Below are positions 3,282-58,554 of a stretch of 64,000 nucleotides of DNA, piece after piece (position 1 is the stretch's first letter; the number at the start of each line of letters is the position of its first letter). Both the position numbers and the translations under genes were made by a program. Location of the stretch: contig CALLJL010000008.1 of the NCBI GenBank assembly GCA_938092135.1, forward strand, positions 320,361-384,360, written 5' to 3'. The notes beneath the pieces were generated by a model. That model searched no databases. It saw only the letters and a list, made by a program, of their open reading frames with translations, and was not told the DNA's origin. The stretch is from an uncultured bacterium (lineage in GTDB: Bacteria > Acidobacteriota > Aminicenantia > Aminicenantales > CALLJL01).

Positions 3282-5802
3282 CGAATTTCCTTTCAGCTGG
3301 CTTGACCTGCAAAATTTTTCTAAGAAATTGACCTGTATAAGAACGGGGGTTTTCAGCTACTTCCTCTGGTGTGCCCATAGCTACCACCCACCCCCCCTCC
3401 TTGCCACCTTCAGGGCCAAGATCAACGATATAATCGCAGGATTTAATAACATCAAGGTTATGCTCAATTATAATAACAGTATTGCCTAAATCGACAAGTC
3501 CATGAAGCACTTCAATGAGCTTACGCACATCCTCAAAATGTAAACCTGTCGTAGGTTCATCCAGAATATAAAGGGTTTTGCCTGTCGACTTGCGTGAAAG
3601 CTCTTTCGTTAGCTTAATGCGCTGAGCCTCCCCCCCTGAAAGCGTGGGGGCTGGCTGTCCAAGCCGAAGATATCCAAGCCCAACGCGCTGTAATGTGGCC
3701 AGCTTTTTTTTGAGCAAAGGATGGGCTTTAAGCTCTTCATAAGCCTCATCCACTGTCATATTTAAAAAATCAGCAATATTCTTACCATGGTAAAGAACAG
3801 CCAGGGTTTCCTTGTTATAGCGGAGGCCACCGCACCGATCACAAGTAACAAGAACATCGGGTAAAAAGTGCATTTCGATTTTTTTTACTCCGGCTCCCTG
3901 GCATTCTTCGCAGCGACCCCCAGGCAAATTAAAGCTAAAGCGACTGGCTGTATAGCCTCTCATTCTCGCCTCGGGAGTCCGGGCAAAAAGTTGTCTCAGG
4001 GGAGTAAACAAACCAGTGTAAGTCGCTGGATTGGAACGAGGGGTTCGGCCAATCGGTTTCTGATCAACAGCTACCACTTTATCAATTTGGTCGATGCCTT
4101 CAATCTTTTCATGCTTACCAGGCTTATCTGTTGAGCGATAAAGCTTTTTCATCAGAGCTTTCCAGAGGATATCACTAACCAAGGTGCTTTTTCCCGAGCC
4201 AGAAACTCCGGTAACCGCGACCATTACTCCCAGGGGAAGATAAACATCAATTCCTTTAAGATTATGCTCACTGGCCTTGCGGATAACAAGCCATCCCTTA
4301 GGCTGGCGCCTTAATTGGGGAATAGGAATTTCCCTTTCCCCCCTAAGATACTGGGCAGTCAGGGACTCAGAACATTTAAGGATAGAAGTTAAGGGACCTT
4401 CTGCAACCTTATAGCCTCCCTTTTCGCCAGCTCCAGGCCCCAGATCAAGGATATAATCAGCTGAGCGAATCGTTTGTTCGTCATGCTCGACCACCACAAC
4501 AGTATTACCTTCATTCCTTAAGGCCCGGAGCAGGTTGATTAGCCGATGATTGTCCCTCTGATGAAGGCCAATTGTGGGTTCATCAAGAACGTAAAGAACT
4601 CCTTTAAGTCGAGCGCCAATTTGGGCCGTCAAACGAATTCTCTGAGCTTCACCACCTGATAAAGTTGATGTTGGCCGGCCAAGATGCAAATAGCCAAGGC
4701 CGAGTTCCTCCATCACTTGAAGCCGGGAGAGGATTTCCTTGATTATCCGAGAAGCAATCACTTCTTGGGAAGGCGGAAAAGAAAGGGAAGAAAGGGTTTG
4801 AATAAGCTGGCTTACGGGAAGCAAACTTAGGTCGTGGATGCTTTTGCCGCCCACAAGAACAGCCAGCGATTCTTTTTTTAATCGGCTACCATGACAAAGG
4901 GGGCAAACCTCTTCAGTCAGCTCAATTTCACCCCATTCATCAAGTCTTGTTTTATAACCAAGACCATTACACTCGGGGCAGGCTCCATAGGGACTATTGA
5001 AAGAGAAGAATCGTGGCTCAAGCCGGGGCAGACTGATTTCACAGAAGGGACAAAGAAGCTTGATGGAAAAGAGCATTTTTTGGCCATTTTCCTGAATAAT
5101 CAATAAATCGCCCCCAGCAAGTTCAAGGGCCTTATCCACAGCTTCCTTGAGTCTTTTCTCCCGATCAGGCTTGATGATAACCTCATCGACGAGGACCTCA
5201 ATATCATGTTTTTTTGTCTTTTCCAGCCAGATTTCCTCATCAAGATCTCGCCAGCGGCCATCAACCCTAACTTTAAGATAGCCCTTACGTCTTAAACGCT
5301 CAAAAAGCTTGGTATATTCTCCCTTTCTACCCCGGATAAGGGGAGCCAGAATTTTAAGCTTTTCCCCATCGAAAAGCTCTTTAAGCCTTACAATCATGCT
5401 TTCACGGCTTTGAGCCTGGACCGGTCGTCCACAACGAGGACAATGGGGAATACCAACTCGGGCAAAAAGCAATCTTAAAAAATCGTGAATTTCGGTTACT
5501 GTTCCAACCGTGGATCGCGGGTTGGTGGTAATCGTTTTCTGATCAATTGAAATTGAAGGAGATATACCTTCAATTGATTCCATTTCAGGTTTAGGCATAA
5601 TTTCAATAAATTGCCGGGCATAAGCGGAAAGGCATTCAAGATAACGTCGTTGCCCTTCAGCAAAAAGCGTATCAAAGGCCAGGGAGCTTTTGCCTGAACC
5701 ACTCGGTCCGGTAATTACTATTAATCGGTTGCGAGGCAGAGAAACATCGATGTTTTTGAGGTTGTGCTGGGCGGCTTTCTTTATTCTAATTTCATTAAGC
5801 AT
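3268..5802 (-). CDS. uvrA: excinuclease ABC subunit A (844 aa, shorter than canonical)
   Basis: Two ABC ATPase modules (GPSGSGKSSLAFDTLFAEGQRRYLE; GVSGSGKSTLV), LSGGEAQRI twice, zinc modules CPFC...CPEC and CEEC...CDRC. Confidence 0.95.
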   Translation of the reverse strand: MLNEIRIKKAAQHNLKNIDVSLPRNRLIVITGPSGSGKSSLAFDTLFAEGQRRYLECLSAYARQFIEIMPKPEMESIEGISPSISIDQKTITTNPRSTVGTVTEIHDFLRLLFARVGIPHCPRCGRPVQAQSRESMIVRLKELFDGEKLKILAPLIRGRKGEYTKLFERLRRKGYLKVRVDGRWRDLDEEIWLEKTKKHDIEVLVDEVIIKPDREKRLKEAVDKALELAGGDLLIIQENGQKMLFSIKLLCPFCEISLPRLEPRFFSFNSPYGACPECNGLGYKTRLDEWGEIELTEEVCPLCHGSRLKKESLAVLVGGKSIHDLSLLPVSQLIQTLSSLSFPPSQEVIASRIIKEILSRLQVMEELGLGYLHLGRPTSTLSGGEAQRIRLTAQIGARLKGVLYVLDEPTIGLHQRDNHRLINLLRALRNEGNTVVVVEHDEQTIRSADYILDLGPGAGEKGGYKVAEGPLTSILKCSESLTAQYLRGEREIPIPQLRRQPKGWLVIRKASEHNLKGIDVYLPLGVMVAVTGVSGSGKSTLVSDILWKALMKKLYRSTDKPGKHEKIEGIDQIDKVVAVDQKPIGRTPRSNPATYTGLFTPLRQLFARTPEARMRGYTASRFSFNLPGGRCEECQGAGVKKIEMHFLPDVLVTCDRCGGLRYNKETLAVLYHGKNIADFLNMTVDEAYEELKAHPLLKKKLATLQRVGLGYLRLGQPAPTLSGGEAQRIKLTKELSRKSTGKTLYILDEPTTGLHFEDVRKLIEVLHGLVDLGNTVIIIEHNLDVIKSCDYIVDLGPEGGKEGGWVVAMGTPEEVAENPRSYTGQFLRKILQVKPAERKFDAPI

Positions 5803-5925
5803 ATATTCATTTTAGCTTTAGGCGGACGAGCTGACAAATCTATCCTCGACTCTATTCTTCGATAATCAAGTTAATGGCCCCTTAAAATTCCGGTTTTTAT
5901 AAAATAACTTTTTAGATTTGATTTT

Positions 5926-7263
5926 TTAGTTAGAAATTCTTTTTTTATAAAATTTCCATAAAAAATAAATGGGAAGTCCCGAGACCATGAAAACGAGATC
6001 TATAAGGGTCCGCCGCCATTCAAAAATTGACCTAAAAATAATAAAGACCAAAAGACCAGACAAATAAAGAACAGGAAAAAAAGGGAAAAGAGGAACGCGA
6101 TATCCCCCCTTTTCTCCAACTCCGGTAATCCGAAATTTAATGAGGGCAATAGTGCTCATGGCTAAGAAGACAAGAATACCAAAGACCATTCCCGCAGCAA
6201 TTACTTCAAACCGGCTTCGAAGGAAAAGAATAGCCAAAGCCCATAGACAGTGAGCCATCACTGCTCGGGAGGGAGTACGAAAACGGGGGTGAACATAATT
6301 GAGCCAATCAAGAAATAGACCGTCTCTGGCCATGGCATAGTACACTCGAGTAGCGGTCATCATGGTTCCATTAATGCTCCCTGTGGCCGAAAGAATTACT
6401 AAAAGGGCCACAAAGGAGGCACCAACAGGTCCGGCTAGCCGAACAGCAACTGCAGAGGCCACAATAGTATTTCCTCTAACCCCTTCCATCCCTAAGGTAA
6501 GGTGGTAAATATAATTGATTAAACAATAGATGGCCACTATAAGGCTAATCCCGAAAAAAAGGCTCAAAGGAATTGTTCGTCGCGGATTGCGCATCTCACC
6601 AGCTGAATAGCCAAGCCTTTCAAAGCCTGTATGGGCAAAAAAGACCATCATTAAAGCCGCTATTATTCGGGTTTTCATATTAAGAGGAATCACTGGCTCC
6701 ATTTTCTGAGTCAAGCCGCTTTCAAGGCCACGACTAAGAACAAGACCGCCTATAACAAAAATTAAAAGCCCCGATACTTTAAAAAAGGTCGTCAATTTCT
6801 GAAAAGCACTTGCCCACTTGAGGCCAATGATATTCAAAAGCCCAAGAATTAAAATCACACTGACCGCCACTGTTCGGTGGGCAATAGGGCTTAAAGGAAT
6901 AAAATAGCCAAGATAATCGGCGGTCACTATGGCCAGCCCAGCGGCCGGACTTGTCCGGATAATAAAAAGCTGGGCCCAACCAAAAAGGAAGCCTACCAAT
7001 GGCCCGAAGGCCTTATAGAGATAAACATATTCGCCTCCGGTGTGGGGAAATCTTGTTCCTAGCTCAGCATAAATTAAGCCCCCGAGAAAAACGAAAAAAC
7101 CAACGGCTACCCAAAGAATTATTATCTGGTTAAAAGAAGAAAGATAGCCGGCAATTATCTGAGGAGTTGAATAGATGCCAGCTCCAATGGTAATACCAAT
7201 TAAAATGGCCAGACCGTCAACTAAACTCAAGGAACGAGGAAGAGTAACCTGCGACCGACTCAT
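5926..7263 (-). CDS. APC family amino acid permease
   Basis: GITIGAGIYSTPQIIAGYL, multiple TM segments, GFERLGYSAGEMRNPRRTIPLSL. Confidence 0.85.
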   Translation of the reverse strand: MSRSQVTLPRSLSLVDGLAILIGITIGAGIYSTPQIIAGYLSSFNQIIILWVAVGFFVFLGGLIYAELGTRFPHTGGEYVYLYKAFGPLVGFLFGWAQLFIIRTSPAAGLAIVTADYLGYFIPLSPIAHRTVAVSVILILGLLNIIGLKWASAFQKLTTFFKVSGLLIFVIGGLVLSRGLESGLTQKMEPVIPLNMKTRIIAALMMVFFAHTGFERLGYSAGEMRNPRRTIPLSLFFGISLIVAIYCLINYIYHLTLGMEGVRGNTIVASAVAVRLAGPVGASFVALLVILSATGSINGTMMTATRVYYAMARDGLFLDWLNYVHPRFRTPSRAVMAHCLWALAILFLRSRFEVIAAGMVFGILVFLAMSTIALIKFRITGVGEKGGYRVPLFPFFPVLYLSGLLVFIIFRSIFEWRRTLIDLVFMVSGLPIYFLWKFYKKRISN

Positions 7264-7615
7264 GTTTTTTTTAACCCCAACTATTTTGCTTCCTTTTCTA
7301 TTTAATGTTTACTTTCTTTAAAATCTAATTTTTAAATCTTCTCTAAACCTTTTAATTAAACAATTTATTGCCTTTTTTTAATTCAAGTTTAAGGAATTTT
7401 ACCCAGATTTATCCTGAATTCAGACGCAAGTCAAGGCTGCCAATAAAAAGGGAGAGCCTTTCGGAAATTTCCCGAGTTATTCCTGTTTTTAATTTAAAAA
7501 AGGCCAATAGAAATAATTAATTCAAATCAATTATATTTTAAATAGGATTTTAAAGAAAAATTTTACTATAGTTTTGAATTTGCCTTAATAATGCGATAGG
7601 ATTTTTATATGAACC

Positions 7616-9964
7616 ATGGCGAAAACCAATATTCTTCTTGAAGCTATTGAAGCCCTCAAAGAAATGGGATTAAAGACTCAAAGTATTAAGGCCATACACT
7701 ATATCCCTCCCCGACCCGGTCGATACCGCGACTATCCCGCTGATGTTCACCCCCTTCTACTTACAGCCCTTCAGCAAAAAGGCTATCATCAGCTCTTTCT
7801 CCATCAATACCTGAGCTGGGAAGCGATCCGGCAAGGAAAAAATGTAGTCATTGTTACCCCCACAGCTTCGGGAAAAACTCTCTGTTATAATCTACCTGTT
7901 CTTCAGTCTATACTTGAAAATAGGTCAAACCGGGCCATCTATCTTTTCCCCACTAAGGCCCTGTCTCAGGATCAGCGAGCTGAGCTCGATGAAATTATTT
8001 CTTTTCTTCCTGAAGAAGTCAGAGTTTTTACCTATGATGGTGATACTCCCCAGGATCCCCGAAGAGCCATACGAGCGCAGGGACATATTGTTATTACCAA
8101 TCCAGACATGCTTCATTCCGGGATATTACCTCACCATACTAAATGGATAAAACTATTTAAAAATTTGAAATATGTAGTCATCGATGAACTCCACAATTAT
8201 CGAGGTATCTTTGGTAGCCATTTGACCAATGTGCTCCGCCGTCTTAAAAGAATTGCCCGATTTTATGGATCAGAACCTCGCTTCATCCTTTGCTCGGCGA
8301 CCATAGCCAATCCCAAGGAAATGGCAGAAAGGCTAATTGAAGAACCTGTTGAACTTATTAATGAGAACGGGGCTCCCCAAGGAGAAAAATATTTTATATT
8401 TTACAATCCGCCAGTTATCAATCCTTATCTAGGAATAAGACGTTCTTATGTTAATGAAACGAGACGAATCGCCACCATTTTTCTCGAGAAAAAACTGCAA
8501 ACCATAATTTTTGCGCCAAGTCGCTTGATAACTGAGGTTTTGTTGACCTACGTCAAGGAAGATATTGAAAAGGGAGTTAAAGATGAGGGCCTAATTAGAG
8601 GATATCGGGGTGGCTATCTTCCCCTGAAGCGGAGAGAAATAGAAAAGGGTTTGCGAGAAGGCAAGATTCTTGGAGTAGTTTCCACTAATGCTTTGGAACT
8701 TGGCATTGATATTGGCTCGCTCGATGTGGCTATTTTAGCTTCATATCCAGGGACAATTGCCTCCACCTGGCAAAGAGCCGGACGGGCCGGCCGGAAGATG
8801 GGCACCTCAGCCGCTGTTCTTGTAGCCTCGAGTTCGCCTCTTGATCAATTCATCATCAACCATCCTGATTATTTCTTTTCTCAATCACCTGAACGGGCTC
8901 TAATTAATCCTGACAATCCCTCGATTCTTATTAGCCACGTAGGCTGTGCTGCCTTTGAGCTTCCCTTCGTCGATGGCGAAAAATTCGGCCAAGCTGAAAT
9001 TACCCCGATTCTTGAATTTCTCGAAAAAGAAAAAATCCTTCATCATTCCCGGGATAAATGGTTCTGGACATCAGAGGCTTACCCAGCTGACCAAATTAGC
9101 CTGAGGAGTGTGAGTTCTGACAATTTCGTTGTCGTGGACACAACGGAAAAAACCAGAGTCATTGCTGAAGTTGATTTTACTTCAGCTCTGACGACGCTCC
9201 ATCCGAAAGCTATTTATATGTGCGAGGGGGAACAATACTATGTGGAAAGCCTCGATTTTGATCAGCGCAAAGCCTATGTCCGAAAAACCGAAGTTGATTA
9301 TTTTACTGATGCCATTGATTACACCAAAATTAAAATTCTTGATGTTTTTAACCAAAAAAACTTGGGACATGCCAAAATTGCCCATGGCGAGGTTCATGTA
9401 GCAACTCAGGTAGTTGGTTTTAAGAAAATAAAATTCCATACGATGGAAAATGTGGGTGCTGGCGATCTAACCTTACCCCAGAATGAAATGCACACCACCG
9501 CCTACTGGCTAACCATTCCGGCTGAAGTATTTTCTTCTTTACCCTTTGAGTCTGAAGCGAAGATTAATGGTCTTTTTGGCCTGGCCTATCTTCTCCATCA
9601 TGTTTCCCCCCTTTTTATGATGTGTGATCTCCATGATATTGGGGTTTCCATAGGCGACGATGTGACTGGCGAATCTGTACCGCCCAGAGATATTCCGCAA
9701 AAAATAACCCCAGATCAAGCAATTCCTGCTTTTTTTGCCTCTACTTTTTCTCCCAATATTTTTATTTATGATAATTATCCAGGAGGCATTGGCCTCAGTC
9801 CTTCTCTCTTTGATCTCGAAAAAAATTTATTGCAAGCCTGTTTGGAAACGCTTCAGGCTTGTCCCTGCCATGAAGGTTGTCCCTCCTGTGTGGGTCCGGT
9901 GAAAGAGAGCGGACAAAGGTCTAAGGAAGTAACAGAATTTATTCTCAAACGTCTTCTAGAATAA
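7616..9964 (+). CDS. DEAD/DEAH-box helicase with DUF1998-type C-terminus, MrfA/YprA-like
   Basis: TPTASGKTLCYNLP, DELHNYRG, STNALELGIDIGSLD, QRAGRAGRK, C-terminal four-Cys CPCHEGCPSC. Confidence 0.85.
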   Translation: MAKTNILLEAIEALKEMGLKTQSIKAIHYIPPRPGRYRDYPADVHPLLLTALQQKGYHQLFLHQYLSWEAIRQGKNVVIVTPTASGKTLCYNLPVLQSILENRSNRAIYLFPTKALSQDQRAELDEIISFLPEEVRVFTYDGDTPQDPRRAIRAQGHIVITNPDMLHSGILPHHTKWIKLFKNLKYVVIDELHNYRGIFGSHLTNVLRRLKRIARFYGSEPRFILCSATIANPKEMAERLIEEPVELINENGAPQGEKYFIFYNPPVINPYLGIRRSYVNETRRIATIFLEKKLQTIIFAPSRLITEVLLTYVKEDIEKGVKDEGLIRGYRGGYLPLKRREIEKGLREGKILGVVSTNALELGIDIGSLDVAILASYPGTIASTWQRAGRAGRKMGTSAAVLVASSSPLDQFIINHPDYFFSQSPERALINPDNPSILISHVGCAAFELPFVDGEKFGQAEITPILEFLEKEKILHHSRDKWFWTSEAYPADQISLRSVSSDNFVVVDTTEKTRVIAEVDFTSALTTLHPKAIYMCEGEQYYVESLDFDQRKAYVRKTEVDYFTDAIDYTKIKILDVFNQKNLGHAKIAHGEVHVATQVVGFKKIKFHTMENVGAGDLTLPQNEMHTTAYWLTIPAEVFSSLPFESEAKINGLFGLAYLLHHVSPLFMMCDLHDIGVSIGDDVTGESVPPRDIPQKITPDQAIPAFFASTFSPNIFIYDNYPGGIGLSPSLFDLEKNLLQACLETLQACPCHEGCPSCVGPVKESGQRSKEVTEFILKRLLE

Positions 9965-17425: not shown

Positions 17426-19195
17426 TTAGGTTATTTGAGTAGTTAAAAAGGCCTGGGGATGGCGGGAAAGAATTTTTTCGATAAAATATTCTTCTATATC
17501 CTGAGAAGTTCTTAAATTTAAAATTCCCTTACAGGCTTCTTCGACCGTTTTGAGCTCGACTGAACGAAGGGTTTTTTTGATCCGGGGGATGAAGATAGGA
17601 TTCATGCTAAAAATTCTCAATCCTAAGCCAAGGAGAATCAGAGCGGAAAGAGGTTCGGCGGCCATTTCCCCACAGACAGCAACTTCTTTACCCGCTTCAT
17701 TAGATTTCTCGATCACATGCTTCAGGAGCCTAATAACTGAAGGGTGCAACGGCTTATAAAGATAAGAAACATATTCATTGGAGCGATCGACAGCCAGAAA
17801 ATATTGAATAAGATCATTGGTCCCTATGCTAATAAAATCAACTTCTCTTACTAAAAATTCAATCATAGCTGCGGCTGCCGGGACTTCAATCATTACCCCA
17901 ATGGGAATATTCTCATCAAAGCGAACTTTTCGGCGACGTAATTCAATTTTTACCTCACTCAGTAATTCTTTAATCATTAAAATTTCCTCAAGTTCAGTAA
18001 TCATGGGAAAAAGAAGCCGAACATTACCCTGACTGCTGGCCCTCAGAATGGCTCTAAGCTGAAGTTTAAAGAGGTCTTGATTTTTAAGAGAAAAGCGAAT
18101 GGCCCTCAAGCCTAAGGCTGGATTGCGTTCAGCTTCAAGATTAAATTGAGAATAGGATTTTTCACCACCAATATCCAAAGTTCTAATATAGGCGGGCCGG
18201 GGATAACATTTTCGGGCCAATTTAGAATAAATTTCAAAATGCTCCTCTTCCGAGGGAAGAGTTTTGCTCTGAAGATAGATATATTCCGTGCGGAAAAGGC
18301 CAACCCCTTCAGCTCCAAGGCTTAAGGCTGCGGGCACTTCCTCCGGCAATTCAATATTGGCTAGGGGGGTAAACACGACTCCATCGAGCGTTACTGAAGG
18401 AAGCCGGGCTATTTTCCTCAGTTCCAGCCGGTATTTATCATATTTTTCCTTTTTGCTCTGAAATTCTTTTTTGATAGCCAGAGGGGGATTGATAAGAACC
18501 TCTCCATCAGTCCCATCAACAATAATAAAATCTCCATTCTTAGCATAAGCAGTTATATTATGTAGACCCACAACGGCTGGAATATCAAGGGAACGGGCCA
18601 AAATGGCTGTGTGGGAAGTCGGTCCACCCATATCAAGGGCAACCCCGATTATATTTCCACGACCAAAGCGGCTAGCCGCTTCAGAAGGTAGAAGATCATG
18701 GGCCACAAGAATAACTTTTCGGTCACCTAGCTGCTCTTTTCGCTTACTTCTTTCTGGCTTGAGATTGCGCTGAATCCTAATTAAAACATCAAAAATGTCA
18801 GCACGTCGCTGACGGAAATATTCATCATTGATACTTTCGAAGGTTTCTCTATATTTTCTATTTACTTCCTCAAGAGCCCATTCAGCTGTGACCTTTTCCT
18901 GGCGAATCACTCTTTCCAGAGTGGCAAAGAGAGATTTGTCTCTCAGAATAAGAAGGTGAGCATCAAGAAGAATGGCCTGCTCCTCACCAGCAATCTTTTT
19001 AATTTTTTCCTTAATTTCGAGCAACTCTCGTTCAGTTTTTTCAATCGATGACTTAAGCCTTTCAATTTCCTTTTCAACCTGAGAAGCAGGGATATTTTCC
19101 CGACGAACGGCGAGGCCCGCAGTTTCAGTTACAAAAATTTCACCCATAGCGATGCCGGGCGAAACTCCAATTCCTCGTAAACGAATAAAATCCAT
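17426..19195 (-). CDS. ptsI: phosphoenolpyruvate-protein phosphotransferase (PTS enzyme I)
   Basis: GGPTSHTAILARSLDIPAVVG, GLFRTEYIYL, FISIGTNDLIQYFLAVDR. Confidence 0.95.
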   Translation of the reverse strand: MDFIRLRGIGVSPGIAMGEIFVTETAGLAVRRENIPASQVEKEIERLKSSIEKTERELLEIKEKIKKIAGEEQAILLDAHLLILRDKSLFATLERVIRQEKVTAEWALEEVNRKYRETFESINDEYFRQRRADIFDVLIRIQRNLKPERSKRKEQLGDRKVILVAHDLLPSEAASRFGRGNIIGVALDMGGPTSHTAILARSLDIPAVVGLHNITAYAKNGDFIIVDGTDGEVLINPPLAIKKEFQSKKEKYDKYRLELRKIARLPSVTLDGVVFTPLANIELPEEVPAALSLGAEGVGLFRTEYIYLQSKTLPSEEEHFEIYSKLARKCYPRPAYIRTLDIGGEKSYSQFNLEAERNPALGLRAIRFSLKNQDLFKLQLRAILRASSQGNVRLLFPMITELEEILMIKELLSEVKIELRRRKVRFDENIPIGVMIEVPAAAAMIEFLVREVDFISIGTNDLIQYFLAVDRSNEYVSYLYKPLHPSVIRLLKHVIEKSNEAGKEVAVCGEMAAEPLSALILLGLGLRIFSMNPIFIPRIKKTLRSVELKTVEEACKGILNLRTSQDIEEYFIEKILSRHPQAFLTTQIT

Positions 19196-19201
19196 CCTTA
19201 A

Positions 19202-19471
19202 CTATTCATTTTCATCAAATTTGTTATTGATCAAATTGACTAATGCCCTAAGGGCTTCCCGCTCATCTTCACCGGAAACCCGGATAATAATTTTTGTTCC
19301 CTGACTGGCTGCCAGAGTCAAAAGACCAAGTATACTTTTGCCATCGATTTCCATAGCATCTTTAATAATTTTGACACTCGAACTGAACCTATTGGCTAAA
19401 TTAACAAGTTTAACCGCCGCCCGGGCATGAAGCCCAAGCTTATTTTTTATAACTACCTCCTTCTCGACCAT
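19202..19471 (-). CDS. ptsH: HPr family phosphocarrier
   Basis: GLHARAAVKLV (His15 site) and GKSILGLLTLAA (Ser46 site). Confidence 0.93.
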   Translation of the reverse strand: MVEKEVVIKNKLGLHARAAVKLVNLANRFSSSVKIIKDAMEIDGKSILGLLTLAASQGTKIIIRVSGEDEREALRALVNLINNKFDENE

Positions 19472-19479
19472 TTTTAAAC

Positions 19480-19884
19480 CTATTTTTTTGTTTTGAGTAA
19501 GGCACTGGCTAAATGAATATTTCTTTTTCCCTGTTCAACTACTTTTCTGGCTACCTCTTTTAAACTTTTGGACCTTTGGAGAGAAACAAACTTAATCAAC
19601 ATAGGCAAATTGACACCGGTGATAATTTCTACTTCATTACTGCGGAGAAAGCTAAAACTTAAATTGGATGGAGTACCGCCGAACATGTCGGTAAAAATTA
19701 TGACTCCATTTTTTTGGTCAACCCGTTTCAGAGACTGGTTAATTTTCTTTTTTGATTCCTCAACATCGTCATACCAGCCAATAGAGATTGCCTCAATATT
19801 AGGTGCCTCTCCCAGAATCATAGTTAATACATTCAAAAGTTCCTCAGCCAATTTTCCGTGGGAAACAATTATTCCGCCAATCAT
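19480..19884 (-). CDS. PTS EIIA component, mannose/fructose/sorbose (EIIA-Man) type
   Basis: IIVSHGKLAEELLN, IIFTDMFGGTPSNLS. Confidence 0.88.
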   Translation of the reverse strand: MIGGIIVSHGKLAEELLNVLTMILGEAPNIEAISIGWYDDVEESKKKINQSLKRVDQKNGVIIFTDMFGGTPSNLSFSFLRSNEVEIITGVNLPMLIKFVSLQRSKSLKEVARKVVEQGKRNIHLASALLKTKK

Positions 19885-19934
19885 ATTTTTCTTTCCAATG
19901 TTTCCAATGAAAATCTCTGATTCACTTCCTTAAT

Positions 19935-20819
19935 TCACCGCCTCAGGTCGCGGTGAATAATTTTTATATCATAATTTCGCTTTTTCAGAAAATTCCTGAG
20001 CTCTTCGCCAATAACCACCGAGCGATGTTTACCACCGGTACAGCCTATGCCAATTGTCAGATAACTCTTGCCTTCCTGAATAAACTTCGGCAAAAGAAAA
20101 AGAATAAACCTGCTCATTTCTTCGAAAAAATCCTGAGTTTCCGGAGAATTAAGAACATATTTTTTGACCTCCGGGCTCTTACCCGTTTTGTTCCGAAAGC
20201 GGTCAATGTAAAAAGGATTGGCTAAAAAGCGGGTGTCGAAAATCAGATCAGCTTCCAGGGGAAGGCCATATTTATAGCCAAAGGTAATGATGGTTATTTG
20301 AATTTTTTTTCTTGGCCGTGGCCAAAGCTTTTTCAATAAAAGGTCCCGAAGCTGATTAATCGTCATTCCGGAAGTATCAATAACATCATCAGCCATGGCT
20401 TTAATAGTCTCCAACCTTTTCCTCTCTAGGCGAATAGCCTCGAGAACTGATTTGCGGGGGAAAAGAGGGTGGGGACGACGACTCTCACTGAATCTTTTGA
20501 CCAGAGTTTCATCGGAGGCATCAAGAAAAATTAATTTAACCGGAATTTTAGTTCTTATGTCCGTGAACACGCGTGGAAAATCATGAAGAAAACCAGGTTC
20601 TCTCATATCTACCACTAAGGCAACTTTTTCAATCTCAACCTCTCTCTTAACCCAGAGATCTATAAAATTAGGAATGAGTTTAGCGGGTAGATTATCAACA
20701 CAATAATAGCCAAGATCTTCGAGAAAATGGCTGACCACAGTCTTGCCTGAGCCTGAAAGGCCAGTGATGATCAAAAAACGATTATCTCCAGCTATGCCCT
20801 TTTTTTTTACTACTGTCAT
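19935..20819 (-). CDS. rapZ: RNase adapter RapZ (YvcJ family P-loop protein)
   Basis: ITGLSGSGKTVVSHFLEDLGYYCVDNLP; SFGYKYG-like TFGYKYGLP; GIGCTGGKHRSV. Confidence 0.93.
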   Translation of the reverse strand: MTVVKKKGIAGDNRFLIITGLSGSGKTVVSHFLEDLGYYCVDNLPAKLIPNFIDLWVKREVEIEKVALVVDMREPGFLHDFPRVFTDIRTKIPVKLIFLDASDETLVKRFSESRRPHPLFPRKSVLEAIRLERKRLETIKAMADDVIDTSGMTINQLRDLLLKKLWPRPRKKIQITIITFGYKYGLPLEADLIFDTRFLANPFYIDRFRNKTGKSPEVKKYVLNSPETQDFFEEMSRFILFLLPKFIQEGKSYLTIGIGCTGGKHRSVVIGEELRNFLKKRNYDIKIIHRDLRR

Positions 20820-21364
20820 CTCATTCTTTTTTCCAACCGCTTAACAATTTCATGAGAGGCAAGATACCCCCTTTGACGCAGCCGATGGACTCGGCAGGCA
20901 ATTTCAATTAGGGTAGCCATATTTCTGCCTGGAGCGACTGGAATTATGAGCTGGGGAATTTTTACTCCCAGAATTTCATAATCTTCAGGAAAATCAAGAC
21001 CAATGCGATCAAACTCATCACCTCGATGCCATCTTTTTAAATTGATGGCCAGATCAATTTGAACCGAAGGACAGATAGCCTTTTTCCCAAAAATTTCTTT
21101 AATATTGATTAGACCAAGACCTCTTAGTTCCATAAAATAACGAATAACGTCAGGCGGTTTACCCCTTAGCTTTCCAGATCGAGTTTTTTCAACCAGAACC
21201 ACATCATCGGAGACAAACCGATGTCCCCGAGTAATTAATTCAAGAGCACTCTCACTTTTTCCTACACCGCTATCACCTAAAATCAAAACGCCCAAGCCAT
21301 AAATCTCAAGAAGACCCGCCGAAATGATCTTCGTCCGTTGGGAATTCAATTTTTTTGAGCTCAT
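20816..21364 (-). CDS. hprK: HPr kinase/phosphorylase (C-terminal domain-only form, 182 aa)
   Basis: GLGVLILGDSGVGKSESALELITRGHRFVSDDVV; IELRGLGLINIKEIFG-like MELRGLGLINIKEIFG. Confidence 0.92.
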   Translation of the reverse strand: MSSKKLNSQRTKIISAGLLEIYGLGVLILGDSGVGKSESALELITRGHRFVSDDVVLVEKTRSGKLRGKPPDVIRYFMELRGLGLINIKEIFGKKAICPSVQIDLAINLKRWHRGDEFDRIGLDFPEDYEILGVKIPQLIIPVAPGRNMATLIEIACRVHRLRQRGYLASHEIVKRLEKRMR

Positions 21365-21409
21365 TGAAATTATAGTTCTGGCAATTCTTCAGCCGGCAAC
21401 AGCCAGGCT

Positions 21410-21880
21410 TCACTCATAGATTTTTTCTTCTTCTTCGCGAATTATTTCCAAGATGCGCCGGGATGACTTAGCGGCCAATATTTTTTTGGGAAGAGATGCG
21501 GCTTTACGAATCAACTGAGCAATTGCCGCCAGAATTTGAAGGTTGAGGCTGGGATTATCTGAAGGAGAAATGAGGAGAAAAAAAATGGAAGTAGGCTTGC
21601 CATCGGCCGATCCAAAGGAAACCCCTTTTTTAGAAAGGGCGAGAACCAGGATTGGATTGTTGAGCCCCGCTATTTTACAATGGGGAATAGCCACACCCTC
21701 GCCTACAGCGGTACTGCCAAGATTTTCTCGCTGAATTAGTTTCTCCAGAAGTTCAGAGGCGTTATTTATTTTCTGCTTTTCTTGGAGGAAATTGACCATC
21801 TCGCGTAAAGCACCATCCCTATCCTTAGCTTTTAGCTCATTAATTATCATTTCTTCAGTTATTAAATTAGCTATTCTCAT
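21410..21880 (-). CDS. ptsN: PTS EIIA-Ntr (PtsN-like)
   Basis: STAVGEGVAIPHCKI with active-site His; position beside hpf/rpoN/hprK. Confidence 0.9.
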   Translation of the reverse strand: MRIANLITEEMIINELKAKDRDGALREMVNFLQEKQKINNASELLEKLIQRENLGSTAVGEGVAIPHCKIAGLNNPILVLALSKKGVSFGSADGKPTSIFFLLISPSDNPSLNLQILAAIAQLIRKAASLPKKILAAKSSRRILEIIREEEEKIYE

Positions 21881-39890: not shown

Positions 39891-41183
39891 ATGTCTACCC
39901 GAATTTCCCATGTTAAGGCCATGGAAATCCTTGATTCCAGGGGAAATCCAACTATAAGATGTTGGGTTTGGCTTGAAAATGGCAGCTACGGTGTAGCCTC
40001 TGTACCCTCAGGCGCCTCCACCGGTACTCATGAAGCCCTTGAACTGCGTGATGGCGATCCCAAGCGCTATCTAGGAAAGGGAGTAAAAAAGGCCATTCGT
40101 CATATTGAAGAAATAATTGCTCCAGCTATTGTTGGCCTTGACGCGTTAGATCAAAAAGCCCTGGATCAACGTCTCCTGGAACTTGATGGTACTCCCAATA
40201 AAAGCCGTCTCGGAGCTAACGCCATCTTATCTGTTTCTTTAGCTTCAGCTGTAGCCGCTGCTCATGCTCAAAATAAACCTCTCTATGAAGCTCTCTTTTA
40301 TCGACCAAAATACAGGCTCCCTGTCCCTATGATCAACATTCTTAACGGAGGCTTTCACGCTGACAATAATCTTAATATTCAAGAATTCTTGATTGTACCA
40401 GCCGGCGCCACCTCCTTTGCTGAAGCTATTCGCCTGGCCGCCGAGGTCTTCCATCACCTAAAAAAAATTCTTAAAGCCAAGGGATACAGCACCGCCGTAG
40501 GCGACGAAGGAGGATTTGCTCCTAACCTGAAAGAAGACGAAGAAGCCTTAGCTTTAATTGCTGAAAGTATTGAAAAGGCTGGTTATCGTTTGGCCGAAGA
40601 TATTTACATTGCCCTCGATGTTGCTGCCTCAGAATTATATGAGAATGGTTATTATGTTTTCAAAAAATCAGATGGCTCTCGCCATAGTGTGGATGAAATG
40701 ATTTCTTTTTATAAGAAATTCAAAGAAAAATATAAATTAATTTCTCTTGAAGATGGTCTGGCTGAAGATGACTGGGAAGGCTGGAAAAAATTGACAAAAG
40801 AAATGGGCCAAAAACTTCAGCTTGTGGGTGATGATATTTTTGTCACCAATTTGGAAAGATTTCGACGGGGAATCAAGGAAGGAATAGCTAATTCCATTTT
40901 AATCAAACTCAATCAAATTGGCACCTTAACAGAAACCATTCTCACCATCGAGGAAGCCCAAAGAAATGGCTATGGTACTATTATCTCCCACCGGTCGGGA
41001 GAAACCGAGGACACTTTTATTGCCGATTTAAGCGTCGCCTTTGACTGTTTACAAATAAAGACAGGCTCCGTGAGCCGAAGTGAAAGAATTGCCAAGTATA
41101 ATCGACTACTTGAAATCGAGGCTGAACTCGGCGATCGCTCAAGTTATGGGGGTTTAACACCCTATAAAAATTTTCTCTCGTAA
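39891..41183 (+). CDS. eno: enolase
   Basis: [47 protein letters not shown]. Confidence 0.97.
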
Positions 41184-41223
41184 TTTTTACTCTCTTAATT
41201 TTTTTAGGGGGTAAGGAGGCAGG

Positions 41224-42834
41224 ATGGCTGGGGAAAAGGAGAGAAAATCCCTCTTCCTGACCCCTTCTGGGATTAAAATTGAAAGAGTTTATACTCCCGA
41301 GCACTTAAAGGGTTTTAATTTTGAAAGAGATCTTGGGGAGCCCGGTCGATTTCCTTTTACCCGGGGGATTTATGCGACCATGTACAGGGGACGACTCTGG
41401 ACGATGCGCCAATATGCTGGCTATGGCACCGCAAAAGAAACGAACCGACGTTTCCGCTATCTTCTTGCCCAGGGCCAGACAGGCCTTAGTGTGGCCTTTG
41501 ATTTGCCGACCCAAATCGGCCTTGATTCTGATCATCCCCAAGCTAGGGGAGAGGTAGGTCGGGTGGGAGTGGCCATCGATGGAATTTGGGACATGGAAGA
41601 ACTTTTTCAATCCATTCCTCTTGATAAAGTGAGTGTCTCCATGACCATCAATGCCACGGCCGCACCTATTTTGGCCATGTATCTTGTAGTGGCTGAAAAG
41701 AAAGGAATTCCCTGGAATTCTTTGGCCGGAACAACTCAGAATGATATTCTTAAAGAATATCTGGCCCGAGGCACTTATATATATCCGCCTCGTCCCTCTC
41801 TCCGTCTAGTAACTGACCTTATTGAATTCTGTCAGGCCAATTTACCTCGCTGGAATCCTATTTCTGTAAGCGGCTATCACATTCGAGAGGCTGGCGCCAA
41901 CGCCATACAAGAACTTGCTTTCACTTTGGCCAACGCTATAGTTTATGTTCGCTCTATGCAAGAAAGAGGCCATGAAGCTGATTCCTTTGCTCCTCGCTTT
42001 TCCTTTTTCCTTGCTGCCCATAACAATTTTTTTGAAGAAATAGCCAAATTTCGTGCCGCCCGCCGCCTCTGGGCGAAAATCATGAAAGAGATAATTAGAG
42101 CTCGCCGTCCTGAATCCTGGCTTTTTCGTTTTCATACCCAAACAAGCGGCTGCACTCTTACAGCTCATCAACCAGAAAATAATGTCGTTCGAGTAACCCT
42201 TCAGGCCTTGGCCGCTGTTCTTGGGGGAACTCAATCTCTTCATACCAATTCGAGGGATGAAGCCCTATCTTTACCAACGGAAGAATCAGCCAGAATCGCT
42301 CTGCGTACCCAGCAGATCATAGCCTATGAAAGCGGCGTACCTGATACCGTTGACCCTCTCGGCGGAAGCTACTTCTTGGAGTACCTTACAGCGGAAATTG
42401 AAGACAGGGTTTGGAAGCTTTTCCAGCAAATAGAGGAACAGGGGGGAATGCTAGCCGCAATTGAAAATGGTTTTGCTCAACGACAAATCGAAGAAAGCGC
42501 CTATGAACAGCAAAAGTTGATTGAGAGCCAACAGCAAATTGTGGTTGGAGTTAATGAATTTAAGCTTAAAGGAGAAAAGCTTCGCTTCAAATTGCTCTCT
42601 ATACCTCCCTCCGTCGAAAAAGAACAGATTGAAAAACTCAGAAAAAAGAAAAAAAACCGCGATTTAAAAAAGGTAATGGCTTCCCTTGAAAACCTGATGG
42701 CGACCGCTAACTCTAAGGACAATCTGATGCCCGCAATTATTCAGGCTGTCAAAGCTCATGCCACCCTGGGAGAGATTGCCGGTGCCCTCCAGGAAGTTTT
42801 CGGAATTTATAAAGAAAATATTTTTTCTCCCTAA
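41224..42834 (+). CDS. methylmalonyl-CoA mutase large (substrate-binding) subunit, no B12 domain
   Basis: [110 protein letters not shown]. Confidence 0.95.
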
Positions 42835-54633: not shown

Positions 54634-56055
54634 ATGTCTATCTTATCATTGATAATACCCATCGCCATAATAGTTGTTTTTTTGGCCTTAATCATTTTTT
54701 TACTTGCCAAGCAATATCGTAAGGTTGGTCCCAACGAAATCCTTATTGTCGCTGGTGGACGAAAAAGAACCGTGGTTCTCCCTGATGGTCGACGGATAAA
54801 AATCGGCTATCGCTATCGCCTTGGTGGTGGTGCCTTTGTTATTCCCTTTATTGAGACTGTCTATACTTTGCCCGTTGATGTCATTACTCTTAATATTAAA
54901 ACTCCTGAAGTTTTGACTTTTAATGGCGTGCCTATAATGGCTGAAGCTACAGCCCAGATAAGAATTGATACAACCGACGAGGCTATTCGTCTGGCTGCTG
55001 AGCAATTTCTAGGCCAAGGAAAAGAGGGGATTCGTGACGTAGCCGCCACCATTTTGGAAGGCAAGATGCGGGAAGTCATTGGCCGGATGACCGTTGAGGA
55101 AATCTATCGCGGCCGCCAGGAATTTGCTAATCGAGTTAAAGAGGCGGCAAAAGAGGATTTTAGCCAGATGGGGTTAGTCATGATTTCTTTTGCTTTGAAA
55201 GATATAAGCGATAGCCAAGGTTATTTGGAAGCCCTCAGTCGTCCCCAGATTGCCGCCGCAAGACGCGATGCGGCGATTGCTCAAGCAGAAACAGAAAAGG
55301 AAGCTATCATCAAATCTTCGGAAGCTCGAAAGGAAGCTGAGATTGCTCGCTTGGCCGCTGAGGCTCTAATCGCCAAGGCCCAATGGGAAAATGAAGCCAA
55401 AAAAGCCGAAAGTCAGGTGATGGTGAATCAGAAGAAAGCCCAGGCTGACTTTGCCTATGAGCTCGAACGCCATAAACTTTCTCAGGAGATAAAGAAAGAA
55501 GAAGCCAGGGTTAAACAAATTGAAAAGCAGGAAGCAATTAAAATTGAAGAACTTGAAATTACACGTCGTCAAAAGGAACTGGAAGCGAGCGTTATTAAGC
55601 CTGCTGATGCCCGGAAATACCAAATTATGGCCGAAGCCGAAGCCGAGGAATACAGAATCCAGGCCGAAGCCAAAGGCAAGGCCGAAGCCCTGCGCCTTGA
55701 GGGGCAGGTGGAAGCTGAAAGTATCAGACTCAAAGGAATGGCCGAAGCGGAGGCAATGCTTCAGCGGGCTAAAGCCTGGGAAAGACTCAATCAGGCAGCC
55801 CTTATTGAAATGTACTTTAAAATCTTACCAGAGCTGGCCAGGGCTGTTGCTGAACCCTTATCTAAAATCGACAAAATTATTATTGTTGGTGGCGATAGAG
55901 GTAGTGGAGCAACGCGCATAACAGCTCAAGTAGCCGAGGTGCTAGCGCAAATGCCTGAAGTCATCAAATCTCTTACAGGTATAGATCTGCAAAAATGGCT
56001 CAAGGAGCGACTGGCGCCTGAAGAAAAGTCTGAGACTGAGAAATCAGAAAGCTGA
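54634..56055 (+). CDS. flotillin / SPFH-band 7 family protein
   Basis: N-terminal TM, SPFH domain, long EA-rich coiled coil (AEAEAEEYRIQAEAKGKAEALRLEGQ). Confidence 0.9.
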   Translation: MSILSLIIPIAIIVVFLALIIFLLAKQYRKVGPNEILIVAGGRKRTVVLPDGRRIKIGYRYRLGGGAFVIPFIETVYTLPVDVITLNIKTPEVLTFNGVPIMAEATAQIRIDTTDEAIRLAAEQFLGQGKEGIRDVAATILEGKMREVIGRMTVEEIYRGRQEFANRVKEAAKEDFSQMGLVMISFALKDISDSQGYLEALSRPQIAAARRDAAIAQAETEKEAIIKSSEARKEAEIARLAAEALIAKAQWENEAKKAESQVMVNQKKAQADFAYELERHKLSQEIKKEEARVKQIEKQEAIKIEELEITRRQKELEASVIKPADARKYQIMAEAEAEEYRIQAEAKGKAEALRLEGQVEAESIRLKGMAEAEAMLQRAKAWERLNQAALIEMYFKILPELARAVAEPLSKIDKIIIVGGDRGSGATRITAQVAEVLAQMPEVIKSLTGIDLQKWLKERLAPEEKSETEKSES

Positions 56056-56077: not shown

Positions 56078-58417
56078 ATGATATCCGAAAAAGCAATCCA
56101 AATCGGTACTTCCCCTACCTTAAAGATTTCAGCTAAAGCCAAGGCGATGAAAGCCGCGGGGATCGATGTTATTGACCTCAGTGTGGGCGAACCTGATTTC
56201 CCTACTCCGGAGAATGTAAAGCAGGCAGGGATCCGGGCGATTCAGGATAACTTCACCAAGTATACAGAAAATGAGGGAATTCCAGCCCTCAAGAAGGCTA
56301 TTATCAAGCGAATGGAGGAAGATTATGGCCTCCATTATGAGCCTAATGAGGTAATTGTTTCCTGTGGCGCTAAGGCTTCTATTTTTCATCTGATCATGGC
56401 TTTAATCAATGAAGGCGAAGAGGTTATTATTCCTGCACCCTATTGGGTAACCTATCCCCAGGCTGTCCTGTTGGCCAAAGGAAAACCGGTCATTGTTCAG
56501 ACAAAAGAAGAGAATGGCTTTGTTCTTACTCCGGAGGAATTAAAAGCCGTTATTACTCCCTCAACTAAAGCTTTAATCTTGAATAATCCCAGCAATCCAA
56601 CCGGTGCCGCCTATAACCGCAAACAGCTTGAAGCTTTGGCGGAAATTATTCGCAATGAGGACATTTATGTGATTGCCGATGAGATTTATAGCAAACTAAT
56701 TTATGAAGATTTTCAATTTGTGAGTTTCGCTTCCTTAGGTGAAGATATTAAGAAAAAAACAATTATTGTTAGCGGGGTTTCTAAAACTTACTCAATGACT
56801 GGATGGCGCATTGGCTTTGCCTTAGGTCCGGCTGAAATTATCAATGGTATGGCTAAAATCCAGAGTCACACCACATCCAACCCCACTTCAATTTCTCAGA
56901 TGGCCAGTTTGGAAGCGCTGCGAGGGCCACAGTATGAAGTTCAGCGCATGGTCGCCGAATTCCAGCGACGCCGCAATTATTGCCTCATGCGGCTGAGAAC
57001 CATCCCCCATGTTTCCTGTTTTAAGCCTCAGGGTGCCTTTTATCTCTTCCCTAATTTTTCCTATTATTATGATAAAGAAGCCGAGGGGATGCAGATTCGG
57101 AATTCCTACGGACTGGCTTATTACTTACTTAAAGAGGCAAAGGTGGCTGTTGTCCCTGGTGATTCCTTTGGAGCTGATAATTATATTCGAATTTCCTATG
57201 CCACTTCCATGGAAAATCTTGAAAAGGGAATGGACCGAATAATCGAGGCCATCGCCAAATTAAAGCCATCACGGAAAGCCCGACGTATGCTTCTTAGCAA
57301 TATTCAGACCAGAGTGAGAAAGGCGCCGCCCGTAGAACCAGAAATAGATTTGAAATTGAGGGAAGCTCTCCAGGCTGAAGTCGAGAGCTATTTGAATAAA
57401 GAAAAATTCTATGAATGGAATGCCAATATAAATGGGGTTATTATTCAGTTAAAAACAAATGTTCCTCATTTGAATGAATTCTGGATTGAAAATTGGTTTC
57501 CAGCTCAACTTGAGGCAGAGATTGAACCCCATGGCGTTATTTATGCTATTGATGGCATTGCTGGCCGAGAACCAAGGGCCTTTTATAATCCTGAGACGAG
57601 AACTGCCTTCTTAATCAACACTGACTTTTATGGGCCGCTACGGAGTCTTGCTCTGGGCATGGTTATCGATATAACTGCAAGGCAACTCTCTTCCAATGCC
57701 TTAAGAGGGATGTCTATAGACTATAAAGGAAATGGCTTGATTCTTGTGGGTCCGCCTGGGACTAGGAAAACAGAACTCTTTTTTGAACTTCTTTTGGATT
57801 CTCGCTTTCGCCTTCAGGCCAATGATCTTATTTTTGTGCGACTGCAAGGAAAAAATGTTTTGGCTGAGTGTGTTGAAAGAAAGCTCTATATGCCCACCCC
57901 ATCGGTCGAACTCTATCCGAGTCTAGCTCCTCTGTTTGATATGAGCAAATGCGAAAATGTGGTAACTAAAAAAGAAGATTGCCAGGATGAAGAATGCCAG
58001 CGAGTCGACGATTGTCGCCTTGACCGAGGCGCACCTTTCTGTTATCGAGCCTCAGCTAATGGCCAGGCTATGTTCGATCCTAACTGGCTTTATGGGAAGG
58101 GAGGTTATCCGCGACGAAATAATCTCCGCTGGATTTTTGTTCTAAGATTCGATACTGTTTCCCCCGGTTTCGTGGAGCTGACCAAAGAGGAAGCGCTCCG
58201 GGTCTTTGAATCGGGCGAAACACCCGGTGCCCAACGAACGCTCTCAGCCGGAAAGCATCAACCCTTCTTCAATCCCCATCTTCTTGGCTCTTCACCTGAG
58301 AAGCTTGAATTGCAGCGCCTCTTCTTTCAGCGACTGTTGGATTCAGTCCAGGTTTATCTATTTAATAGCGGTGTGGCTGGCGCTGACAAAATTAAACAGC
58401 TCATCGCCCCCGACTAA
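56078..58417 (+). CDS. class I PLP aminotransferase (aspartate-type) fused to C-terminal PEPCK/HprK-like P-loop domain
   Basis: aa ~1-395: SVGEPDFPTPENVKQAG, NNPSNPTGAAY, VSGVSKTYSMTGWRIGF; aa ~396-779: GNGLILVGPPGTRKTELFFELLLDSRFRLQANDLIFVR, later FDTVSPGFVELTKEEALRVFESGETPGAQ. Single uninterrupted frame. Confidence 0.85.
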   Translation: MISEKAIQIGTSPTLKISAKAKAMKAAGIDVIDLSVGEPDFPTPENVKQAGIRAIQDNFTKYTENEGIPALKKAIIKRMEEDYGLHYEPNEVIVSCGAKASIFHLIMALINEGEEVIIPAPYWVTYPQAVLLAKGKPVIVQTKEENGFVLTPEELKAVITPSTKALILNNPSNPTGAAYNRKQLEALAEIIRNEDIYVIADEIYSKLIYEDFQFVSFASLGEDIKKKTIIVSGVSKTYSMTGWRIGFALGPAEIINGMAKIQSHTTSNPTSISQMASLEALRGPQYEVQRMVAEFQRRRNYCLMRLRTIPHVSCFKPQGAFYLFPNFSYYYDKEAEGMQIRNSYGLAYYLLKEAKVAVVPGDSFGADNYIRISYATSMENLEKGMDRIIEAIAKLKPSRKARRMLLSNIQTRVRKAPPVEPEIDLKLREALQAEVESYLNKEKFYEWNANINGVIIQLKTNVPHLNEFWIENWFPAQLEAEIEPHGVIYAIDGIAGREPRAFYNPETRTAFLINTDFYGPLRSLALGMVIDITARQLSSNALRGMSIDYKGNGLILVGPPGTRKTELFFELLLDSRFRLQANDLIFVRLQGKNVLAECVERKLYMPTPSVELYPSLAPLFDMSKCENVVTKKEDCQDEECQRVDDCRLDRGAPFCYRASANGQAMFDPNWLYGKGGYPRRNNLRWIFVLRFDTVSPGFVELTKEEALRVFESGETPGAQRTLSAGKHQPFFNPHLLGSSPEKLELQRLFFQRLLDSVQVYLFNSGVAGADKIKQLIAPD

Positions 58418-58437
58418 ACCCGCATTAACTAAACACA

Positions 58438-58554
58438 CTAAACAGGTACCGCCTTACTCATTTCACTATTTTCTTTACTAAACAGGTACCGCCTTACTCA
58501 TTTCACTATTTTCTTAGCTAAACAGGTACCTCTTTACTCATTTCACTATTTTCT
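58438..58554 (+). repeat. three near-identical 40-bp direct tandem repeats
   Basis: Cores aacaggtaccgccttactcatttcactattttct at 58441, 58481 and 58521 (third has tct for gcc-region change); exact 40-bp period. Confidence 0.95.

Follow-up and report, generated by a model that had tools for sequence, protein, structure and literature searches.

Aspartate aminotransferase (AspAT) and phosphoenolpyruvate carboxykinase (PEPCK) are both enzymes of the PEP-pyruvate-oxaloacetate node. In the literature we searched, no genetically fixed link between the two is described. We found no report there of an aminotransferase-PEPCK fusion, a PEPCK pseudoenzyme or a flotillin-aminotransferase operon (most subscription papers lay outside the scope of the search). 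A precedent at the same node is malic enzyme, which carries an inactive phosphotransacetylase (PTA) domain with an allosteric role (PMC8100219). There, as in the protein described here, an enzyme is joined to a degenerate domain of a central-carbon enzyme, but the families are unrelated, and it is by inference that we assign regulation to the AspAT-PEPCK fusion.

The individual halves of our protein resemble well characterized enzymes. Class Ib AspATs (PDB 6f35, 1j32, 1bjw; PRK06107) match the N-terminal half over their full length and share all catalytic residues including Lys-99, but the fusion protein adds a 384-aa C-terminal extension and stays under the PRK06107 cut-off. ATP-PEPCKs (PF01293; Thermus thermophilus 2pc9, Escherichia coli 1ayl) share their whole-domain fold with the C-terminal half, in which the P-loop, ENV and NTG motifs can be recognized. 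This half is, however, shorter (~375 aa against 510-540), lacks metal-site and substrate residues, contains a Cys-rich insert and is joined to an aminotransferase. HPr kinase (HprK; PF07475, TIGR00679) and HprK-related kinase A (TIGR04352) belong to the same superfamily and align in the P-loop region, but the fused domain scores below their cut-offs, and the form studied here lacks the catalytic histidine and the first aspartate. The PRK09344.1-3 PEPCK subfamily is the target of a weak match of the fused domain, the type of an operon neighbor (c2) and the partner in an archaeal fusion; c2 keeps the full PEPCK motif set, whereas the fused domain does not. Our preferred reading, to which we assign a probability of roughly 0.55 from sequence comparisons and models, is that a degenerate PEPCK-fold module on an AspAT serves docking or regulation and couples aspartate transamination to PEPCK, with a flotillin as the likely scaffold.

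Results

We analyzed a locus in a 64,000-nucleotide stretch of DNA from an uncultured bacterium (the whole stretch is called the window below). A first-pass annotation had described an uninterrupted frame of 779 codons, the first ~395 of which would encode a class I aminotransferase, and we confirmed both points. The locus contains the following features:

54634..56055, plus strand: flotillin/SPFH gene (c1), with a Band_7 match, 22 bp upstream of the fusion and likely in the same operon
56078..58417, plus strand: fusion gene, AspAT (aa 1-395) and PEPCK-like domain (aa ~406-779), a single open frame
56078..57262, plus strand: AspAT half (class Ib), by PF00155, PRK06107 and the closest PDB structure
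57293..58414, plus strand: PEPCK-like domain (aa ~406-779), by AlphaFold model and Foldseek match to ATP-PEPCK

A search of the genomes of the phylum located the fusion gene in 43/396, namely the window's genome, 24 others of the same order and 18 elsewhere in the phylum, whose C-terminal halves are 34-52% identical. The count was taken after dropping three weak HprK-like matches, and two of the 43 genes are cut by contig ends. In the survey of relatives that the first-pass annotation had called for, the two halves are fused in nearly all 43 carriers, with frames of ~765-800 aa from independent assemblies. An assembly error or missing stop codon can be rejected, as the same fused frame is present in some 40 independent genome assemblies. 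A scan of GTDB genomes added Candidatus Aminicenantes SKW293 with the same fused protein (89% identical over all 779 aa), two further bacterial contigs with a fused protein at 59%, one of them labeled Ignavibacteriae, and a Bathyarchaeota contig encoding a stand-alone 375-aa relative. Another fusion, an 801-aa frame, occurs in a genome (G914) from the phylum of the Ignavibacteriae contig. The two halves have been inherited together: among the 43 proteins, pairwise distances in one half correlate with those in the other (r=0.96), and both trees show the same main groups. The fusion therefore arose once and is ancient.

Scanning the locus for promoters and terminators gave no signal above chance. 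Just 3' of the fusion gene are three tandem 40-bp repeats (58437-58554; 94% matches) with GGTACCGCC, followed by a SIS-domain gene in convergent orientation.

We compared the aminotransferase half to known families. The PF00155 match (aa 30-388, E=3.8e-80) spans model positions 2-361/361 and hence the whole domain, and the PLP motif SKTYSMTGWRIG is present. Its closest NCBIfam model is the aspartate transaminase PRK06107 (E=1.4e-134), although the equivalog cut-off is missed (449 bits vs 617), and its closest PDB structure is 6f35, aspartate aminotransferase B. We aligned 43 family proteins, 27 closer homologues (including that of the window) and 16 more distant ones. Lys-236, Arg-371 (the alpha-carboxylate arginine), Asn-173, Asp-201, Tyr-204, Arg-244, Tyr-62 and Lys-99 are kept in all 43, two of them at these positions:

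56372..56374, plus strand: K99, place of the Ib-type lysine reading the distal carboxylate, conserved in 43/43
56783..56785, plus strand: K236, PLP lysine, conserved in 43/43

The Lys-99 position corresponds to Lys-109 of Thermus AspAT, by which Ib-type enzymes recognize the distal carboxylate, and its conservation suggests an acidic substrate. With its catalytic residues intact, this half would act as an aspartate aminotransferase. The window's genome has no second close AspAT besides the fused one, the next match being 32% identical.

No match above cut-off was found for aa 396-779 in Pfam or NCBIfam. Weak matches are to Hpr_kinase_C in the P-loop region (PF07475; E=0.08, 12.9 bits vs a cut-off of 33.3) and to PEPCK PRK09344.1-3 at aa ~686-771 (E=0.037), and the PF01293 family HMM matches neither the fusion protein nor anything else in its genome (G000). 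An AlphaFold2 model of this half, built with a 30-member alignment, has a pLDDT of 89 and a pTM of 0.89. Its best Foldseek match in the PDB is the ATP-PEPCK of Thermus thermophilus (2pc9/1j3b; E=2e-18 over ~410 columns; TM 0.68 when normalized to the query and 0.53 when normalized to the target), followed by other ATP-PEPCKs and GTP-PEPCKs. Comparisons with hhalign agree weakly with the fold match, the profile of this half aligning to canonical ATP-PEPCK with E=3e-4 over 314 columns and to c2 with E=8e-5. The first-pass annotation had correctly proposed a PEPCK/HprK-superfamily fold and had singled out a C-terminal stretch as PEPCK-like; the fold search reaches a full ATP-PEPCK and not merely an HprK core, and the PRK09344.1-3 match covers that very stretch, so that together with the profile comparison the likeness is real. 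HPr kinase is absent among the matches listed (best 50), and on its scores, its residues and its structural matches we reject HPr kinase proper as the identity of this half. A full-length model (pLDDT 84, pTM 0.52) contains two good domains with undefined mutual orientation and interface; with no fixed packing of the halves, it lends no support to a rigid intramolecular channel.

We next mapped PEPCK active-site positions by motif and profile alignment to E. coli PEPCK numbering, not by superposed coordinates:

57704..57706, plus strand: R543, place of the PEPCK metal ligand H232; R in 27/27 closer homologues, H in 14/16 distant and 19/20 archaeal ones
57749..57772, plus strand: Walker-A-like loop GPPGTRKT, aa 558-565, where the first-pass annotation had placed it; K564 (PEPCK K254) kept in 27/27 closer homologues, R in 16/16 distant ones
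57821..57826, plus strand: kinase-2 pair N582-D583 (PEPCK D268-D269), first acid lost, from the family alignment
57878..57883, plus strand: R601-K602 (PEPCK K288 region), conserved in 43/43
57950..58042, plus strand: Cys-rich insert C625-x9-C635-x4-C640-x5-C646-x8-C655, with PEPCK-like E626-N627 inside
58064..58066, plus strand: Q663, place of PEPCK R333; Q/Y/H/F in 27/27 closer homologues, R in 16/16 distant and 19/20 archaeal ones
58364..58366, plus strand: N763, within the PEPCK NTG motif; kept in 41/43 bacterial homologues and 20/20 archaeal ones

At the places of PEPCK Lys-213, His-232, Lys-254, Asp-268, Asp-269 and Arg-333, the window protein has Ser, Arg, Lys, Asn, Asp and Gln. The Lys-213 equivalent is replaced in 21/27 closer homologues (Ser in 18) and is Lys in 6. 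Asp-268 is replaced in all 27 (by N/S/G/A/I/L), and the second kinase-2 position is Asp or Glu throughout. Common to the closer and the distant group are Gly-561, Thr-565 (42/43), an acid (D/E) at 583, Arg-601-Lys-602 and Glu-626-Asn-627. The catalytic histidine and Asp-Asp pair of HPr kinase are replaced in the window protein by Arg-543 and Asn-582-Asp-583. Because different catalytic residues are lost in different clades while the fold is under constraint, the pattern is that of a pseudoenzyme, and the PEPCK-like half probably has no activity as a PEPCK. Within the Cys-rich insert, which is missing from archaeal relatives, Cys-646 and Cys-655 are found in 43/43 proteins and Cys-635 and Cys-640 in 27/27 closer homologues; it is possibly a metal (Zn) or Fe-S site.

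The C-terminal profile retrieved full-length homologues from 43/250 genomes of the phylum to which the Bathyarchaeota contig belongs, nearly all of them stand-alone proteins of ~312-380 aa. We compared 20 archaeal proteins, and all 19 that are unjoined to a PEPCK keep Lys-254, Asp-268, Asp-269, His-232 and Arg-333. The remaining one, L132 (archaeal genome G558, 5616-8270), is an 884-aa protein in which the homologue of our domain is joined to a PEPCK of the PRK09344.1-3 subfamily (436 bits, exceeding the cut-off of 369). Its residue losses (His-232 to Arg, Asp-268 to Asn, Arg-333 to His) are as in the window's clade, in a lone archaeal fusion sequence on a long branch. As a Rosetta-stone fusion, L132 is evidence for a PEPCK link of the decayed domain that does not depend on the aminotransferase. 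The stand-alone proteins of ~315 aa (L133-L147, L149, L150) form an uncharacterized archaeal family of HprK/PEPCK fold whose catalytic residues are intact, possibly a new metabolic kinase.

The C-terminal half could be an active, HprK-like kinase coupled to transamination, with another target such as HPr or another protein, an amino acid or a sugar. This would be consistent with the full HprK/PEPCK kinase centers of the archaeal stand-alone proteins, with the genes near several of their loci (apgM, for phosphoglycerate mutase, near 4 and an alpha-glucan phosphorylase gene near 5 of 20) and with the partly intact P-loop of the window protein. We consider it unlikely, however: the window's clade has lost the histidine and first acid, the other clade has lost the Walker lysine, the HPr-kinase family cut-offs are missed, Foldseek prefers PEPCK, and HPr is already served by a separate HprK in the window. 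The latter, quoted in the first-pass annotation, is indeed present at 20816-21364 on the minus strand, in a regulatory PTS cluster (17426-21880). The annotation had also raised a PTS link; the cluster and its HprK exist, but they lie far away, and we found no specific tie to the fusion. With 182 aa this HprK is short, roughly a catalytic domain on its own, and by eye its neighbors resemble genes for RapZ, EIIA-Man, HPr, EI and EIIA-Ntr. Elsewhere in the window (39891-42834), an enolase gene immediately precedes a 536-aa frame resembling methylmalonyl-CoA mutase by eye.

We then investigated the genes next to the fusion. The upstream gene c1 matches Band_7 with E=1.2e-34 (120 bits vs a cut-off of 23.6), and its match to the flotillin C-terminal region (PF15975, Flot; E=5e-5) falls just under the cut-off (23.8 bits vs 27), which a distant homologue exceeds with 31.5. 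A flotillin gene is located directly upstream of the fusion, on the same strand and with a gap of 0-152 bp, in 33/33 genomes examined, including that of the window. Many relatives have a third gene, c2, for a protein of ~610-625 aa; at 9 loci it follows the fusion in the same orientation after 15-443 bp, and at 9 others it is nearby in opposite orientation. At one locus (L082 12005, G016:C218), a 140-aa frame is found between fusion and c2. The c2 protein is a divergent PEPCK, with PF01293 matches of E~1e-24 to 1e-28 and a PRK09344.1-3 match of E~1e-85 (285-292 bits, under the cut-off of 369). Its motif residues Tyr-187, Lys-192-Lys-193, His-212, Lys-242, Asp-265-Asp-266, Lys-286, Glu-309, Arg-331 and Asn-454-Thr-455-Gly-456 are invariant (n=17).

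The adjacency of flotillin is stricter than that of c2, as could be expected were the domain a purely structural or membrane-targeting partner of flotillin, unrelated to PEPCK chemistry. The frequent c2 neighbor and the archaeal fusion L132, near which no flotillin was recognized by eye among the neighboring ORFs, make this rather improbable.

A search of the window's own genome for c2, including a hidden copy, did not find one; this genome encodes a canonical GTP-PEPCK elsewhere. A strict dependence of the PEPCK-like domain on c2 is therefore excluded there. Among the 43 fusion genomes, c2 occurs in the absence of GTP-PEPCK in 22 (two of them with a canonical ATP-PEPCK as well), GTP-PEPCK in the absence of c2 in 17, both in 2 and neither in 2; c2 was called from PF01293 matches (E~1e-23 to 1e-28) or from the sequences themselves. 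The Fisher p value for this mutual exclusion (1e-7) is overstated, since the pattern tracks phylogeny and maybe reflects few independent events. The distribution fits c2 being the PEPCK of the c2-bearing fusion genomes. Four genomes (G045, G070, G091, G136) have c2-like matches without a detected fusion. We rejected the idea that c2-type PEPCK regularly accompanies the archaeal stand-alone kinases: a strong match (E<1e-100) occurs in only 2/80 genomes, and weaker ones (E 1e-15 to 1e-20) are found both with and without the kinase.

It is very unlikely that the protein is a true bifunctional enzyme whose C-terminal half is a working PEPCK turning aspartate into PEP, the channel envisaged by the first-pass annotation: the PEPCK fold and the P-loop lysine and threonine, second kinase-2 acid, Lys-602, Glu-626 and Asn-763 kept in the window's clade would allow for it, but the Lys-213, His-232, Asp-268 and Arg-333 equivalents are replaced in the window protein, the Walker lysine is Arg in 16/16 proteins of the other clade, the losses differ by clade, and a canonical GTP-PEPCK is already encoded in the window's genome. 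These replacements in both clades speak against the domain itself making PEP or being a new kinase. What survives of the proposal is the aspartate-oxaloacetate-PEP link, which the neighboring PEPCK-type gene and L132 support.

Discussion

We thus favor a regulatory or docking role for the PEPCK-like half. We picture the catalytically degenerate domain as a partner module dedicated to the PEPCK step: it may dock the aminotransferase on a PEPCK and/or sense a nucleotide, PEP or oxaloacetate. Aspartate/oxaloacetate flux would thereby be coupled to oxaloacetate/PEP flux. The adjacent flotillin, probably co-transcribed, would be the likely membrane scaffold or anchor of the assembly. In the ancestral arrangement, the active PEPCK would be the neighboring divergent c2. 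In the window's lineage, with c2 gone and a GTP-PEPCK encoded elsewhere, the domain may mainly represent a regulatory module, a role that is likelier there than docking to c2 because c2 is absent.

An elaboration of this reading, which we regard as tentative and on balance doubtful, is a membrane-organized aspartate-to-PEP metabolon composed of flotillin, the AspAT with its pseudo-PEPCK and a hetero-oligomerizing divergent PEPCK. The pseudo-PEPCK would here be a dedicated allosteric subunit of PEPCK, having arisen when a copy of an archaeal kinase of the HprK/PEPCK type decayed.

The fusion together with flotillin and often a second PEPCK-type gene suggests a built-in device linking amino-acid use to gluconeogenesis. 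If this is true, a phylum-conserved pseudo-PEPCK, tied to PEPCK by operon and by archaeal fusion, would represent a new flux control between amino acids and gluconeogenesis. It would also provide a functional lead for the uncharacterized archaeal HprK/PEPCK-like family, and it would open the function of bacterial flotillins to testing, by way of one that has a specific enzyme client.
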